DNA of 33,541 nucleotides from an uncultured Spirochaetaceae bacterium (lineage in GTDB: Bacteria; Spirochaetota; Spirochaetia; Sphaerochaetales; Sphaerochaetaceae), in the NCBI GenBank assembly GCA_944392705.1, contig CALXXO010000008.1:1-33541 (forward strand). The letters are read 5' to 3'. Within the stretch, counting starts at the first letter, position 1, and the number at the start of each line of letters is the position of its first letter. Under the pieces are notes generated by a model. That model was not told where the DNA came from and searched no databases. It saw only the letters and a list, made by a program, of their open reading frames with translations. Shown one piece after another: positions 3,345 to 21,268 of the stretch. The position numbers and the translations under genes are program-made.

Positions 3345-4829
3345 ATGGCAGATCTTTACTTCACCAGTGATACACATTCATATATCTATCCTACTGATTA
3401 CATCTCTCAGGGGCGGAAGAATATGGGGTATATGGCGCTATCTTCGTCTTTCAAGGAAGGTGCTGTCATAGCCGATGGTGGCGATGTGCTTCAGGGTTCA
3501 CCGCTGGTCCGGTACGAGATGAAGAATCATATAAGGCCGTTTCTTTCATCTGTTGCTTTCAATAGGGCAGGGCTTTCTGTATATACACCGGGTAATCATG
3601 ATTTCAATTTCGGCTATGATGCTCTCCGCGATTTCCTCACATCCCTCAATGCCGATAAAGTCGCCGCCAATCTGAGGGATATAAGAGGGGAACTGGGGGT
3701 AAAGCCATTCACCGTAATTGAAACATCCGATGGGATGAAGCTGCTTTTCGTAGGTGTCATTACAGACTATGTCAATGTATGGGAAAGCAAGGAGAACCTT
3801 GAGGGGCTGGAAATAACGGACTCTGTGGAAGCTGCTGCAAGAGCTCTTGAAGAAGGGCGTAAGCTATCCCCGGATTTCACAATCTGCATCTATCATGGAG
3901 GATTCGGAGAAGAGGAGGGGGATATAAAGGAGAACAGGGGTTCTGAGCTTGCCGAGCTCGGCTTTGATGTTCTCCTCACAGCCCACCAGCACGCGATAAT
4001 AGAGCCGAAGCATATTGGTACGGCACTTACGCTGCAGACAGGGTCAAAGGCTATGCACGCAGCCCACCTTGTATTCAGCAAGGATGGTTCAATCGATGCT
4101 GAGATCATAACACCAGATGCTTCGCTTCCTTTGAAAAAGGAGATGGAAAGCATCCCTTCTGATACAGAGGAAAAGGTGCTTGCATCGCTTGCAGAGCCAA
4201 TCGGGTATGTTGATGGAAATCTTGCGGATTCATCGAAGCTTGAAAGTGCAGTCCATGGCTCATCGCTTGCGGATTTCCTGAATGATGTTCAGCTTAAGTT
4301 TTCTGGAGCGGATGTATCGGCAGTGTCTCTCTTCAATGATCCTGTCACCCTTGGTGGCGAGGTGACATTGGGAGGGCTTCTATCGGCATATCCTTTTGCA
4401 AACACACTCCTCAAACTCAAGGTGACAGGGAAAATCTTGAAGGATGCTATGGAAAGATCCGCTTCCTATTTTGATGTGGAGAATGGGCGGGTCAGAATCA
4501 GCGACAGGTTTATAATCCCCAAGGAAGAACATTATAACTACGACTACTACCGTGGTGTTTCCTATTCATTTGATATAAAGAAGCCTCTGGGGGAGAGGGT
4601 TGTCCGCCTGATGCTGGGCAGTGTCGATTTGCTGGCTAATCCCGATCACGCTTTCACGATGGTTGTCAATAGTTATCGTGCAACAGGAACTGGTGGCTAT
4701 GGATCATACTGCAAAGCTTCTGTCCTTGAGCGTTACAGTCAGGATGTGCAGGAACTGCTCATTGAATACTTTGAATCTGTCCGCCCTGTCAGGATTCCGG
4801 AAAAGACGGACTTTCTTCTTATACTCTGA
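3345..4829 (+). CDS. 5'-nucleotidase/metallophosphoesterase family protein, apparently cytoplasmic
   Basis: This is a UshA-type two-domain phosphoesterase of 494 residues. The metal-binding set of the N-terminal domain is complete: D9 and H11 (SDTHS), D47 (GGDVLQGSP), N84-H85-D86 (GNHDFNFG), H184 (YHGG), and H214/H216 (AHQH). The C-terminal nucleotidase domain ends with NSYRATGTGGYG, close to the substrate-binding loop of 5'-nucleotidases. UshA relatives are usually exported, but this one begins MADLYFTSDTHS with no signal peptide, so it should act inside the cell. It starts one base after phnE and is the last gene of the transporter operon. I infer that it dephosphorylates whatever the transporter brings in, perhaps a nucleotide, cyclic nucleotide or other phosphate ester. 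Its stop lies 11 bp inside the convergent ECF ATPase gene. Confidence 0.88.
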   Translation: MADLYFTSDTHSYIYPTDYISQGRKNMGYMALSSSFKEGAVIADGGDVLQGSPLVRYEMKNHIRPFLSSVAFNRAGLSVYTPGNHDFNFGYDALRDFLTSLNADKVAANLRDIRGELGVKPFTVIETSDGMKLLFVGVITDYVNVWESKENLEGLEITDSVEAAARALEEGRKLSPDFTICIYHGGFGEEEGDIKENRGSELAELGFDVLLTAHQHAIIEPKHIGTALTLQTGSKAMHAAHLVFSKDGSIDAEIITPDASLPLKKEMESIPSDTEEKVLASLAEPIGYVDGNLADSSKLESAVHGSSLADFLNDVQLKFSGADVSAVSLFNDPVTLGGEVTLGGLLSAYPFANTLLKLKVTGKILKDAMERSASYFDVENGRVRISDRFIIPKEEHYNYDYYRGVSYSFDIKKPLGERVVRLMLGSVDLLANPDHAFTMVVNSYRATGTGGYGSYCKASVLERYSQDVQELLIEYFESVRPVRIPEKTDFLLIL

Positions 4830-6495
4830 CGACTGATTCCAGAAATTCGTTTTCGTCGAGCAGGATGCTTTCCGCCCCCAGTGCTTTCCCGAGCGCTGTG
4901 ATGTGCGGGAGCTCCAATCCTGCTTTTTCGAGCGATTCGGATGCTGCAAAGACCTCTCTGGCATTTCCATCCTCCAGAACCTTTCCACCAGCCATTACGA
5001 TGACTCTTTCGAAAGAGTCTGCAACGAGATCCATGTCGTGAAGTATTGATACAACGAGCATTCCTTGCTCGCTCAGTTTCCCTATTATTTCACGGATCAT
5101 CGCCTTCCCCTCATCATCCTGCGCTATAGTAGGTTCGTCGAGGATTATCGCATCGGGGGCCATGGCTATCACAGAGGAGAGTGCTACCATCTTCCTTTCG
5201 TGAAGATCGAGGTCGTAGGGATTGCGTTCGGCTTTGTCTCCAAGCCTTACCATCTCGAGAGCTGCCATAGCTTTTTCCCTTGCCGTTTTCTGATTCATCC
5301 CTATATTCAGCGGTCCGAACATTACCTCGTCTATTACCTTAGGCTTGAAGATCTGATCGTCCGGGTTTTGAAATACATATCCGATTGAAAAAGCAAGGGA
5401 GGCAACCGTGGCTTCTGCTGTATCCTTTCCTTTGAAAAGTATCCTTCCTTTCCCTGGTTTTAGAAGGCCTTTCATGAGTTTTGCCAGCGTGGTCTTTCCA
5501 GCTCCGTTCTGCCCTATTATAGCGGTAGGGCGGTTGTCGAAAGAGAGATTCAGGTCCGAGATTACATCGTGCCCCGGTGTATAGCCGAAAGAGATATTCT
5601 CAAGCCTGAATACTTCATTTCCCTTCGGTGATGGAGTACTCTGGACTTCTTTGAATGAAAGCCTTCCATCCATCAGTTCTTTCGCTTCGGAGACTGTGAC
5701 AGGGTAGGAGGAATCGGGTTTTCTGAAGGAAAGGGCCTTTGCAATCCTTGTAACGGCAGGAGCCTTTACCCCATGGCTTTCCAGCATTGTACTGGAAAGT
5801 ACTTCAGAAGGAGTGCCGGATGCTACCACTTCTCCTTTATCGAGGAGGATTATCGAGTCAGAATAGCTTGCGATTTTGTCGATTTTCTGTTCAATCATGA
5901 TGATTGTTATGCCGCTTTTCCTCAGGTCCTCTACGACGCTGAAGACCTCCTCGGAACCTGCTGGATCCAGCTGGCTTGTAGGTTCGTCGAGAATGAGAAC
6001 ATCTGGTTGAAGAACAAGAATGGATGCTATTGCGACACGCTGCATCTGACCACCGGAAAGATCGAATGGGTTTCTATCCCTGTACTCATAGATTCCAAGG
6101 CGCTCCAGCGTGCTGTCCGCTCTTTTCCTCATTTCCTCCGGTGGTATTGAGAAGTTCTGCATCCCGAAGCAGACCTCATCGTATACTCTGTCTTTTGCTC
6201 CGGAAAGCTGGTTGAATGGGTTCTGAAAGACAAGCCCAACGCTTTTTGAGAGCTCTGAAACTGGTGTTGTTGCAGCATCCTGGCCGCCTACTATCACAGA
6301 GCCCCCATATGCGCCTTTGTAGAACTGTGGAACAAGTCCTATTATTGCGCTGGCCAGCGTTGATTTCCCTGACCCGTTTTTTCCGATTATCCCAGTGAAG
6401 CTTCCTTTTTCTATCGAGAGGGAAATTCCGTTCAGCGCGAGATCCTTTGTTTTGGGATAGCGGTATTTGAGGTTCTTTATTTCTATATAAGCCAC
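4819..6495 (-). CDS. Fused dual-ATPase subunit of an ECF-type transporter
   Basis: Two ABC ATPase domains lie in one 558-residue chain, equivalent to EcfA and EcfA' of energy-coupling-factor importers. Domain 1 has Walker A 38-46, Q91, signature LSGGQ 146-150, Walker B D170-E171, and Gln203 where a switch His is expected. Domain 2 has Walker A 328-336, Q376, a degenerate signature DLDLHERK (428-435), Walker B D453-E454, and switch His486. The frame opens at an ATG at 6510, but I place the start at the GTG at 6495: TGGAGGG lies correctly spaced before it, while the ATG has no ribosome site. It overlaps the T-component gene by 13 bp. The linker (about 255-295) is ordinary. The last 11 bp overlap the convergent phosphoesterase gene. 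Confidence 0.92.
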   Translation of the reverse strand: MAYIEIKNLKYRYPKTKDLALNGISLSIEKGSFTGIIGKNGSGKSTLASAIIGLVPQFYKGAYGGSVIVGGQDAATTPVSELSKSVGLVFQNPFNQLSGAKDRVYDEVCFGMQNFSIPPEEMRKRADSTLERLGIYEYRDRNPFDLSGGQMQRVAIASILVLQPDVLILDEPTSQLDPAGSEEVFSVVEDLRKSGITIIMIEQKIDKIASYSDSIILLDKGEVVASGTPSEVLSSTMLESHGVKAPAVTRIAKALSFRKPDSSYPVTVSEAKELMDGRLSFKEVQSTPSPKGNEVFRLENISFGYTPGHDVISDLNLSFDNRPTAIIGQNGAGKTTLAKLMKGLLKPGKGRILFKGKDTAEATVASLAFSIGYVFQNPDDQIFKPKVIDEVMFGPLNIGMNQKTAREKAMAALEMVRLGDKAERNPYDLDLHERKMVALSSVIAMAPDAIILDEPTIAQDDEGKAMIREIIGKLSEQGMLVVSILHDMDLVADSFERVIVMAGGKVLEDGNAREVFAASESLEKAGLELPHITALGKALGAESILLDENEFLESVVRV

Positions 6496-7259
6496 GTTGC
6501 AACCCTCCATACAGCTGCCGAGACGATGATCAGGGCGAGGATGATAGTCATTGGCTTGTCACCCCTATGCTTTTCCCATTCCTTTAAGTAGCTTCTCTTT
6601 CCTTTTCCCCCGAATCCTCTGACTTCGAGTGCGATTGCCCTTTCCCTTGTGTTTATCAGAGAGCTGGTTACTACAGGTGTGATCAGAGGAATGAAAGCCT
6701 TCATTCTTTTTATAAGGCTTCCCTCTGTTTCCATTCCCCTGCTTCTCTGTGCATCGGTTATCGTGTCCATTGTTCCCATCATCTGTGGAATGATACTGAA
6801 CACAGAGGATATTACATAGCTAAGGCGAGGGGAGAATCCGTGGCGTTCAAGTTCATCCGCGATATCCTCGGGTTTTGTTGTAAGCACAAGTATGGAGAAG
6901 GACAGGAGCATATTGATAATCACACATCCCGTCCTCAGCGCTTTCATCATTCCTTCCCTGTAAAACACCACCGACCCGATGGAGAAGAGCGGTGTAAGGT
7001 TATCAGCATCGAAAAGTCCTTTGATGATGAATATTGTCGCTATGATCGTGAATGAGAAGATAATCAAAGCTCTTGCACGCTTCAATGATTTGCCGCTGAT
7101 AAGCAGGGCTATATCGAGCGCTATTGCCACAGCATATGCCCATAGCGTACCCAGGAGGAGGGGGACAATGATTGCTGCGGCAATATACATCAGCTTCGTG
7201 AAGGGGTGGACACGGCAAAGCCATGTTCCGTTATCCCGATAAAGGCTGATACTCTTCAC
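6483..7259 (-). CDS. ecfT: ECF transporter T component (EcfT), transmembrane coupling protein
   Basis: This is the membrane scaffold that joins the ATPase pair to the substrate-binding S component; 258 residues. It starts at a GTG at 7259 that shares one base with the TAG stop of the S-component gene. Hydrophobic segments near residues 25-50, 55-85, 100-125 and at the C-terminus fit the five to eight helices of the family. Two coupling-helix motifs with a conserved Arg-Gly are visible: AQRSRGMETEG and ALEVRGFGGKGKRS, which in EcfT plug into the ATPase grooves. Gene order S-T-A with overlaps suggests a dedicated (group I) ECF module, not one sharing a distant general module. Confidence 0.89.
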   Translation of the reverse strand: MKSISLYRDNGTWLCRVHPFTKLMYIAAAIIVPLLLGTLWAYAVAIALDIALLISGKSLKRARALIIFSFTIIATIFIIKGLFDADNLTPLFSIGSVVFYREGMMKALRTGCVIINMLLSFSILVLTTKPEDIADELERHGFSPRLSYVISSVFSIIPQMMGTMDTITDAQRSRGMETEGSLIKRMKAFIPLITPVVTSSLINTRERAIALEVRGFGGKGKRSYLKEWEKHRGDKPMTIILALIIVSAAVWRVATWLI

Positions 7260-7867
7260 TAGTCGAGCCTTTCCACTTCATCTGAAGCATCGTAGAGGGC
7301 TGTAAGTTTCTCAGGAAGAGCTTTCAAGATGATGAAGGTAAGGATGAGTGTTATGATCTTGTCCGGAACATCCACTATGATTTCATCGATAAGAGATGAG
7401 AACCAGAGAGGAAGCGACGCGGCCTGTGCTGCTGCAAATGCTGCATCTCCCCAGACATTTCCAGTCTGTCCACCCCAGAATATGATGTTCAGCGGTGTTG
7501 ATATAACAATAGCTACAGCTCCTGCAACAAGCGCAGTGATTATTGATTTCGGGAAGCTCTTCATGAATCCCGCTCTTGCCATGATGCCGACAAAGAATCC
7601 GATAAAAAGGCTTGTGAGGGCATAAATCAATGTGATGGAGTCTCCGGTTGTAAGACCGTAAATAAGATTGTTTGCAGCTCCGCAGATACCTCCGATGATA
7701 GGTCCGCCAAGGCAGGCTCCAAGACAAGTTCCGATTGAATCGAGCCAGAGAGGTAGTTTCAGAGCAGAAGCAAATAGCTTGCCTATGTAATTGATTCCAA
7801 TACACGCCGGTATCAGAACGATTGAAGCGACGTCGAATTTTGTCCTGAAAATGCTTTTTCCGTTCAT
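7259..7867 (-). CDS. ECF transporter S component, substrate unknown (nucleoside-linked by context)
   Basis: This is a small hydrophobic protein of 202 residues with about six membrane segments, the size and layout of ECF substrate-binding S components. Gly-rich helices (GTCLGACLGGPIIGGICGAANNLIYG) and an early LPLWLDSIGT stretch resemble ECF S proteins of unassigned specificity. It is encoded between a nucleoside phosphorylase and EcfT. The start ATG at 7867 overlaps the phosphorylase stop as ATGA, with GGAG in the preceding codons. Context suggests a nucleoside or nucleobase as substrate, but that is inference; vitamins are the commonest ECF substrates. The protein lacks a recognisable RibU, ThiT or BioY signature as far as I can see. 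Confidence 0.78.
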   Translation of the reverse strand: MNGKSIFRTKFDVASIVLIPACIGINYIGKLFASALKLPLWLDSIGTCLGACLGGPIIGGICGAANNLIYGLTTGDSITLIYALTSLFIGFFVGIMARAGFMKSFPKSIITALVAGAVAIVISTPLNIIFWGGQTGNVWGDAAFAAAQAASLPLWFSSLIDEIIVDVPDKIITLILTFIILKALPEKLTALYDASDEVERLD

Positions 7868-8598
7868 ACAACACTCCTTAATGCTTCAAGAGCAAGTATA
7901 ATCTCATTCTCTTCGCCAGTCATGGCAAGTTTCTCCGAATCTGCGTATTTTCCAACAGATGATGGTACATCGCTCTGGAAAGCTGAGACCGTGTTTAGTA
8001 CCGATGCTGCATGAAGACCCCTGAGCGATGCGACTGTAAGTATAGTAGCGCTCTCCATATCGGACGCGATTGCCGGGGTAGCAGCCCATTTCCTGTAAAG
8101 CTCCGGATTCCTGTCGCTGTACATTGTGTCGTGGCTACGGCAGATTCCAAGATAGTGGTTCATCCCAAGTTCATCTGCCTTTTCCTTTAGTCTCTGAACA
8201 AGGGAGAAATCCGCAATCGCAGGGTATTCTGGATCGATATATCCTCGGCTTGTGCCATCGTTTCTTATCGCACCTGTGACTATAACCAAGTCTCCGATAC
8301 CTATATGTTCCTTCAGAGATCCAGAGCTTCCGATTCTTATCATGTACTCGACACCGAGCTTTCCCAGCTCTTCCACGGCGATTGCCGCAGATGGTCCGCC
8401 CATGCCTGTGGACATCGCAAGGATTCTAGTTCCTTTGTAGGTTCCGGCAATGCTTCTGTATTCGCGGCTCATCCCGAAATCCTCTGCATCCGTGAAATGC
8501 CTGGCAATGCGCTCGACTCTCGCCGGGTCGCCTGGAAGTATCGCAAGCTTTGTGTTTATATTCCGATCAAGCCTTATATGTGGCATTCTGTCGCTCAT
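7864..8598 (-). CDS. Nucleoside phosphorylase, uridine phosphorylase-like
   Basis: This cytoplasmic enzyme would split a nucleoside with phosphate into a base and (deoxy)ribose 1-phosphate. It is 244 residues from the ATG at 8598, chosen because AGAGG sits six bases upstream and MSDRMPHIRL aligns with the N-terminus of uridine phosphorylases. An in-frame ATG at 8613 would add five residues. Family features are LAILPGDPARV (phosphate site), the signature STGMGGPSAAIAVEELG, IRIGSSGSL, and DMESATIL, where the Glu contacts ribose. The pattern is nearer uridine phosphorylase than purine phosphorylase, but base specificity is not certain. It leads the ECF transporter operon, so it likely acts on what that system imports. 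Confidence 0.86.
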   Translation of the reverse strand: MSDRMPHIRLDRNINTKLAILPGDPARVERIARHFTDAEDFGMSREYRSIAGTYKGTRILAMSTGMGGPSAAIAVEELGKLGVEYMIRIGSSGSLKEHIGIGDLVIVTGAIRNDGTSRGYIDPEYPAIADFSLVQRLKEKADELGMNHYLGICRSHDTMYSDRNPELYRKWAATPAIASDMESATILTVASLRGLHAASVLNTVSAFQSDVPSSVGKYADSEKLAMTGEENEIILALEALRSVV

Positions 8599-8615
8599 AG
8601 TAATCCTCTGCATTC

Positions 8616-8647
8616 ATTGTACTCCAATCCAGCAATCGGAGTACAAT
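8616..8647. promoter_or_regulatory. Symmetric divergent promoter/operator: 10-bp perfect inverted repeat
   Basis: ATTGTACTCC (8616-8625) and GGAGTACAAT (8638-8647) are perfect inverted copies around a 12-nt centre. Read rightward, TTGTAC (8617-8622) is -35-like and TACAAT (8642-8647) is -10-like, with a 19-nt spacer. By symmetry the same pair exists leftward. The right -10 ends 6 nt before the isochorismatase ATG. The left one ends 17 nt before the phosphorylase ATG at 8598. The repeat could equally be a regulator's operator; the two roles are compatible. Confidence 0.6.
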
Positions 8648-8653
8648 GCTTAT

Positions 8654-9211
8654 ATGAGAGATCTTCTACTTGTTATCGATATGCAGAATGTCTATACACC
8701 TGCCATGCCTTGGGCCTGTGGCAGTATCGAGAGATGTGAGGAGAATATATTGAAACTCCTCGGCAGCGGCATCGATTCAGCCTTTACTATGTTCCTACCT
8801 CCCCAGAATCCTCAGGGTCGATGGAAAGAATACTCAGCTGTGAACAGGGAGATAAACGAGAACGCCTGGATGAATGAACTCATCCCAGCATTCAAACCTT
8901 ATGTGAATGAAAACAACATCTTTTACAAAAGCACTTACTCCTCCCTTCATGCAGAAGGTCTTCTTGCAAGAATAAAAGAATATGATAGGGTAGTCGTTTC
9001 AGGGGTTGTGGCGGAATGCTGTGTACTTTCCACTGTATTCTCATTGATAGATGAAGGAATCCCTTTTGTGTATCTTTCAGATGCTGTATCCGGACTGAAT
9101 GAGAAATCGGAGAATGAAGCTGAAGCTATTGTTTCATATCTTGTCCCTGTTCACGGTGAAATAATGTCAACTGAAGCGTATATCTGTTCGAGTTTGCGTC
9201 GGCTATGTTAA
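8654..9211 (+). CDS. Isochorismatase-family cysteine hydrolase
   Basis: This is a 185-residue member of the isochorismatase/nicotinamidase superfamily. The catalytic triad is visible: D9 (LLVIDMQN), K92 (FYKSTYS) and C123 (VVAECCVLST), with an early DMQN motif and the non-proline loop around 118-120. Substrate is unknown; relatives hydrolyse nicotinamide, carbamates, ureidoacrylate or isochorismate. I start it at the ATG at 8654, since the upstream in-frame stretch runs through the divergent gene. There is no well-placed ribosome site; a -10-like TACAAT lies 6 nt upstream, suggesting a leaderless message. It diverges from the nucleoside phosphorylase-ECF operon, so a role in base or vitamin salvage is possible but unproven. 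Confidence 0.87.
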   Translation: MRDLLLVIDMQNVYTPAMPWACGSIERCEENILKLLGSGIDSAFTMFLPPQNPQGRWKEYSAVNREINENAWMNELIPAFKPYVNENNIFYKSTYSSLHAEGLLARIKEYDRVVVSGVVAECCVLSTVFSLIDEGIPFVYLSDAVSGLNEKSENEAEAIVSYLVPVHGEIMSTEAYICSSLRRLC

Positions 9212-20726: not shown

Positions 20727-21268
20727 CTGAAGCTCCTTTTCTTTAGATTATCCTCCATGGAGTACAAGAGCAACTTATTTTAGATTGGCCAGTACTATGG
20801 CTGTCTTTCCAAGTGCTGCTTCTATGATGGCTCTTGTTTGACAATCCCACAATTCATTTCCAGCTTGTTACTCCAAAATGGAAGAAGAAACCTGCGTTTT
20901 CGTGCATAGGACGATGGCATTCTGGTATGAATCTCGAGAAAGCATATCAGCAGTTAGTTGAATTGAAGACGAAATACAAAGGGGCTAGAAGTCTTCTTTT
21001 TTACGGTGGTTCGGCGTGTAGAAAAAACCTGGCTTGTTAGAGAATTTGGAAAGTAAGAGTATAAATCATGTCTCTTCATTAATTCATTCAAGCAAAGATG
21101 TATTTAGTCTTTTGAAGATACTGGAAGTTCCATATTCAATACGGACTATATGGATAAGATGGAGTGCGTTCACCTCCCGATATACATGGCTTCTATACTT
21201 ACTTTGATTGACGCAAAAAACCTCCAGATCATTAGTTCGACCTGGAGGTTCGCTATTGTAATGCTGGT
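20727..21268. other. Gap of about 540 bp with no recognised gene; probable remnant
   Basis: The stretch separates the phosphohexomutase and proS genes. It holds a 67-codon + frame opening at a TTG (20834-21040; segments such as VTPKWKKKPAF and ARSLLFYGGSA) with no ribosome site, no family I recognise and no promoter. A second frame ending at 20841 contains FPSAASMMALV. Bases 20815-20834 match 9312-9331 at 17 of 20 positions, both encoding AAS-x-MAL, which hints that both are scraps of one element, possibly a transposase. The first 50 bp are upstream of the mutase gene, and the last 54 bp contain the proS terminator. The rest shows stop codons in all frames. Confidence 0.5.
21215..21250 (-). 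terminator. Intrinsic terminator of proS
   Basis: AACCTCCAG (21219-21227) and CTGGAGGTT (21242-21250) pair perfectly. On the - strand the stem is followed by a run of T (21220-21215), overlapping its own end. It lies 19 nt after the proS stop codon. Confidence 0.85.

Follow-up and report, generated by a model that had tools for sequence, protein, structure and literature searches.

Overlapping divergent bacterial promoters, which stand back to back, consist of two promoters that point outward from a short gap between divergent genes, with overlapping polymerase footprints. Promoters of the MerR-activated type have spacers of 19–20 nt, and known MerR operators are closely spaced dyads. In another class, the bidirectional promoters, a symmetric −10 element is shared by both directions, transcription starts are most commonly separated by 10, 18 or 23 bp and the opposing polymerases exclude each other (PMC12825309). 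Leaderless mRNAs, with the start site at or beside the start codon, are known from mapping in Leptospira interrogans (PMC5243855); in a 2011 survey they averaged 3.9% in those spirochaete genomes where they occur at all (PMC3160421).

Compact divergent promoters are already known, as are leaderless genes; in one conserved locus of an uncultured Spirochaetaceae bacterium the two appear to be combined. The window, as we call the whole 33,541-nt stretch of DNA that was analysed, belongs to a draft genome of 2.12 Mb in 199 contigs (about 75% complete), about half of which (1.09 Mb) underlies the genome-wide statistics on gaps and gene starts. The genes on either side of the locus are as follows:

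4819–6510, minus strand: ECF transporter double ATPase (TIGR04520, E=4.2e-136)
6483–7259, minus strand: ECF transporter T component (PF02361, E=2e-24)
7259–7867, minus strand: ECF transporter S component, CD3073-like (NF045596, E=9.5e-27, below the curated cut-off)
7864–8598, minus strand: uridine-phosphorylase-like nucleoside phosphorylase, 244 aa (PF01048; TIGR01718, E=1.2e-61, below its cut-off)
8654–9211, plus strand: isochorismatase-fold hydrolase, 185 aa (PF00857, E=1.4e-21)

The start codons of the divergent pair, at 8598 (−) and 8654 (+), are 55 nt apart, and the solved structures nearest to the phosphorylase are uridine phosphorylases. An alternative phosphorylase start at 8613 is unlikely, because homologues align from 8598, a GAGG motif lies just upstream of 8598 and the predicted minus-strand transcription start (8609) is downstream of 8613. 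We consider the 55-bp gap likely to hold a compact, overlapping pair of divergent housekeeping (sigma-70-type) promoters, the plus-strand one giving a leaderless transcript; this would make it a neat but rather commonplace example of a compact divergent promoter rather than an established new switch.

The phosphorylase–ECF operon and the isochorismatase gene are inherited together. Among the 48 genomes of the genus, 13 carry the hydrolase, and the same 13 carry a close phosphorylase; the phosphorylase relative in the other genomes is only roughly 40% identical, or less. The operon and the hydrolase gene co-occur in all 13, and in 12 of these the pair is directly divergent with the ECF genes behind the phosphorylase. 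The same arrangement is found in some Lachnospiraceae and related Firmicutes, with longer gaps (149–332 nt) and, for the most part, purine-rich Shine–Dalgarno-like sequences upstream of the hydrolase genes. Within this co-inherited pair, one gene is predicted to be translated leaderless and the other from a Shine–Dalgarno sequence, from starts about 45 bp apart. The locus thus offers a natural setting in which polymerase competition, and leaderless as against Shine–Dalgarno-led translation, could conveniently be studied in spirochaetes.

The gap contains an inverted repeat at 8615–8648, CATTGTACTCC AATCCAGCAATC GGAGTACAATG, with exact 11-bp arms around a 12-nt centre. The perfect symmetry claimed for 8616–8647 in a preliminary description is borne out: the core arms ATTGTACTCC (8616–8625) and GGAGTACAAT (8638–8647) are exact inverted copies with 12 nt between them, and the flanking pair C8615/G8648 extends each arm from 10 to 11 bp. 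The promoter elements in and around this repeat are:

8605–8608, minus strand: Shine–Dalgarno GAGG of the phosphorylase gene, read from the sequence (AGGAG- or AGGTG-like in relatives)
8609, minus strand: predicted start site of the phosphorylase operon, from the −10 position, with a leader of about 11 nt
8616–8621, minus strand: −10 hexamer TACAAT of the phosphorylase–ECF operon (ATTnTA in 6 of 6 aligned sequences, TAGAAT in relatives; kept in genome G033, which carries an insertion here)
8617–8622, plus strand: candidate −35 TTGTAC, spacer 19, weak and not conserved (top in the promoter model; TTC and longer gaps in relatives)
8641–8646, minus strand: candidate −35 TTGTAC, spacer 19, weak and not conserved (promoter model)
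8642–8647, plus strand: −10 hexamer TACAAT of the isochorismatase gene (unchanged across all 6 aligned sequences; survives the insertion in G033)
8654, plus strand: predicted start site at the A of ATG, leaderless mRNA (from the −10 position and a genus-wide peak at −12/−13)

In the arrangement that we favour, the right arm supplies the −10 of the isochorismatase gene, making the A of its ATG the expected first transcribed base; the left arm supplies that of the phosphorylase–ECF operon, whose promoter would drive a Shine–Dalgarno-led mRNA with a short leader. The inverted repeat would then follow from the two −10 boxes facing outward, each being the inverse of the other. As the promoters point outward, overlapping and back to back, the earlier wording 'face-to-face' is a misnomer. 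The reading of −10 elements in both arms, with starts near 8654 (+) and 8609 (−), gains support from hexamer conservation and promoter-model ranking, the starts themselves being predictions. These predicted starts are 45 bp apart. Polymerase footprints, whose sizes are established, exceed what such a separation allows without overlap, so two RNA polymerases could probably not sit there together, and the two genes would compete or alternate for polymerase. Mutually exclusive binding is therefore plausible, judging from the overlapping footprints.

The locus resembles ordinary overlapping divergent promoters in having a −10 for each direction within the shared gap, conserved in the closest relatives and scored by the promoter model; it differs in the predicted absence of a leader on one product and in a perfect inverted repeat that, in this species alone, runs on past the hexamers. 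Across these genomes, 4 further divergent pairs among the 71 scored have −10s 20–21 bp apart. A bidirectional promoter with a shared −10 was also considered. As in that class (PMC12825309), −10 symmetry underlies the divergent arrangement, but there a single −10 serves both directions, whereas this gap has two separate −10s 20 bp apart with predicted starts about 45 bp apart, so the locus does not fit that class.

The evidence for a leaderless plus-strand transcript comes from the position of the −10. In 13 of 13 orthologues of the genus, a TAnnnT hexamer ends 6–7 nt upstream of the hydrolase ATG, which sets the −10 some 12 nt upstream of that codon; none of the 13 has a Shine–Dalgarno sequence upstream of that ATG. 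On these grounds the isochorismatase mRNA is predicted to be leaderless, a property overlooked in the preliminary description. The arrangement recurs across the genome: TAnnnT stands at −12 in 75 and at −13 in 38 of the 551 gene starts whose upstream sequence is free, whereas other positions have it about 13 times each. Shine–Dalgarno sequences precede 2 of the 113 starts with TAnnnT at −12/−13 and 208 of the 438 others. Genomes G013 and G040 show this peak too, and two further genera of the family have it in weaker form. Gene starts were taken from a simple dicodon model run on the 1.09 Mb, and some are misplaced (the isochorismatase start was put at 8840), an error that should blur rather than create the peak at −12. 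The 113 starts, about a fifth of the 551, suggest that predicted leaderless genes are widespread in this genus of spirochaetes. Compared with the mapped transcripts of L. interrogans (PMC5243855), which likewise start at or beside the start codon, these cases belong to another spirochaete family and are predicted from sequence alone.

To see what is conserved in the gap, we aligned six sequences, the window and its five closest relatives with an intact pair. Besides the coding start, the main invariant blocks in all six are ATTnTA, the minus-strand −10, and TACAAT, the plus-strand −10. The left hexamer in relatives is ATTCTA (TAGAAT on the minus strand), and the distance between the two outward −10 hexamers is 20 bp in the window and 21–22 bp in the relatives. 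In contrast, the inner flanking positions (GGAG/CTCC) pair at 4 of 4 positions in the window and, counted by eye, at 5 of 20 in the five relatives, which is the chance rate. The perfect repeat is thus best described, from this alignment, as a symmetric couple of −10 boxes to which five further symmetric pairs, peculiar to the window's genome, are added.

A natural rearrangement bears on the same point. In G033, two contigs overlapping by 141 bases reveal a 3.3-kb insertion between the phosphorylase and hydrolase genes, after which ATTCTA remains beside the phosphorylase and TACAAT-N6-ATG beside the hydrolase. Retention of each −10 is, as read from these contigs, independent of the other arm. 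The insertion (contig C99, 124–3420) appears by eye to encode a HigB/RelE-type toxin, an HTH antitoxin and a DUF3800-like protein. The preliminary description took the repeat as such for the functional unit and proposed that both arms should be kept with the gene pair in relatives. We ran this comparison: symmetry outside the −10s is missing in relatives that keep the pair, and only the −10 hexamers are retained, a result that tells against the claim on its own terms.

The repeat exceeds chance, yet it is not unique in kind. Dinucleotide shuffling of the 55-bp gap gave arms of at least 10 in 1 of 20,000 trials, and 126 divergent gaps in the 1.09 Mb hold 6 such repeats where 0.7 are expected. 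Given symmetric hexamers, five extra symmetric pairs have a chance of about 1 in 1000, and promoter elements do not explain them. The CTCC/GGAG and outer C/G symmetry may be accidental, or may reflect a mutational template switch or a recent operator. The relatives' hydrolases are 42–64% identical to that of the window, a distance at which fine-scale history is invisible; a search for relatives above 64% protein identity found none, so the extra symmetry is not datable. One of the six repeats in divergent gaps, a 41-bp inverted repeat on contig C34 (15634–15674) with 14-bp arms and outward TATAAT at both ends, resembles the 8615–8648 repeat in layout.

The −35 elements are the least regular part of the locus. 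TTGTAC (8617–8622) stands 19 nt from TACAAT (8642–8647), with the same geometry on the minus strand. A promoter model trained on leaderless promoters of this lineage, with the window locus excluded, ranked TTGTAC-N19-TACAAT first in both directions, with a score of 8.9 each, near the 25th percentile of the promoters used for training. The best putative −35 of both promoters is at 19 nt and weak, with nothing good at 16–18 nt; at the usual 17-nt spacing, matches are poor in the window and in most relatives, and a generic promoter scan with 16–18-nt spacers did not detect the repeat site. The 113 leaderless promoters have a TTGaca-like −35 at 17 nt, with TTG at spacer 17 in 21 of them and at spacer 19 in 1. 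The −10s and the geometry, rather than the −35s, are our basis for classing the divergent pair as sigma-70-type, a −35 at 16–18 nt being usual rather than indispensable. The promoters would be either intrinsically weak or read by a polymerase aided by something else.

These data bear on a stricter reading, in which each arm serves as the −10 in one direction and the −35 in the other, so that all contacts are shared across a 19-nt spacer in a symmetric either–or switch. It fits the window's own genome, where the composite site scores top in both directions and TACAAT is a −10 variant whose complement holds TTG, and to that extent the earlier proposal is possible. It does not extend to the relatives, where −35 scores are poor because ATTCTA lacks TTG and the gap has lengthened to 21–22 bp; moreover, the −10s in G033 outlast the insertion that separates them, and TTG is far rarer at spacer 19 than at 17. 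We therefore regard strict sharing of the arms as possible but doubtful.

A second alternative is an operator, with a repressor dimer or tetramer bound to both arms and controlling both genes. The above-chance symmetry of the gap, the enrichment of inverted repeats in the genome's divergent gaps and the space that weak −35s leave for an activator are consistent with it. Against this, motif searches found the full repeat nowhere else in the window or in the 2.12-Mb draft genome; a search for a regulon with the full site and with single arms gave a full match at this locus only, and arm sequences occur at chance frequency. As the symmetry beyond the −10s is unconserved in relatives with the pair, the site was neither conserved with the pair nor recurrent in a regulon across the genome and relatives searched. 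No regulator gene adjoins the locus in the window, and an operator, which would be specific to this species, seems improbable. Somewhat more speculative is the idea that the repeat evolved in this species into a fully symmetric promoter with every polymerase contact shared, a regulator-free switch at which one polymerase would choose between a leaderless and a Shine–Dalgarno-led mRNA of the same pathway; we hold this to be a long shot.

A MerR-family activator kinking the 19-nt spacer, a spacing that the preliminary description had likened to that of MerR-type promoters, is very improbable: the spacing of the best-scoring reading matches such promoters and the genome has three MerR-type genes in other places, but none of the three is in the window or near the locus, only CTCC-N12-GGAG lies inside or at the edge of the spacer where a compact operator dyad would be expected, the 19-nt spacing is missing in relatives and a single leaderless promoter in the set has TTG at that distance. 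An RNA hairpin, attenuator, terminator or riboswitch is equally hard to credit, because the 11-bp stem, which could form if transcribed, lies upstream of both predicted start sites, and the repeat has no terminator-like site and no Rfam match.

The 9-mer GGAGTACAA does recur at 20759–20767 upstream of the phosphohexomutase gene, as the preliminary description had reported; its recurrence carries no meaning, since 8 copies are seen in 1.09 Mb against 8.8 expected. On contig C5 (14763–14785), TTATTGATAATCGTTATCAATAA forms a Fur-box-like palindrome between divergent genes. By alignment and by eye, the hydrolase (8654–9211) retains the isochorismatase-fold candidates Asp (VIDMQN), Lys (YKSxYSS) and Cys (VAECCVLST), and nicotinamidase metal-site histidines are seemingly absent from it. 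Finally, the ECF S component (7259–7867) shares 71–76% identity between these spirochaetes and the Firmicutes with the same gene order, exceeding the identity of its neighbours, a level of similarity that may reflect transfer between phyla.
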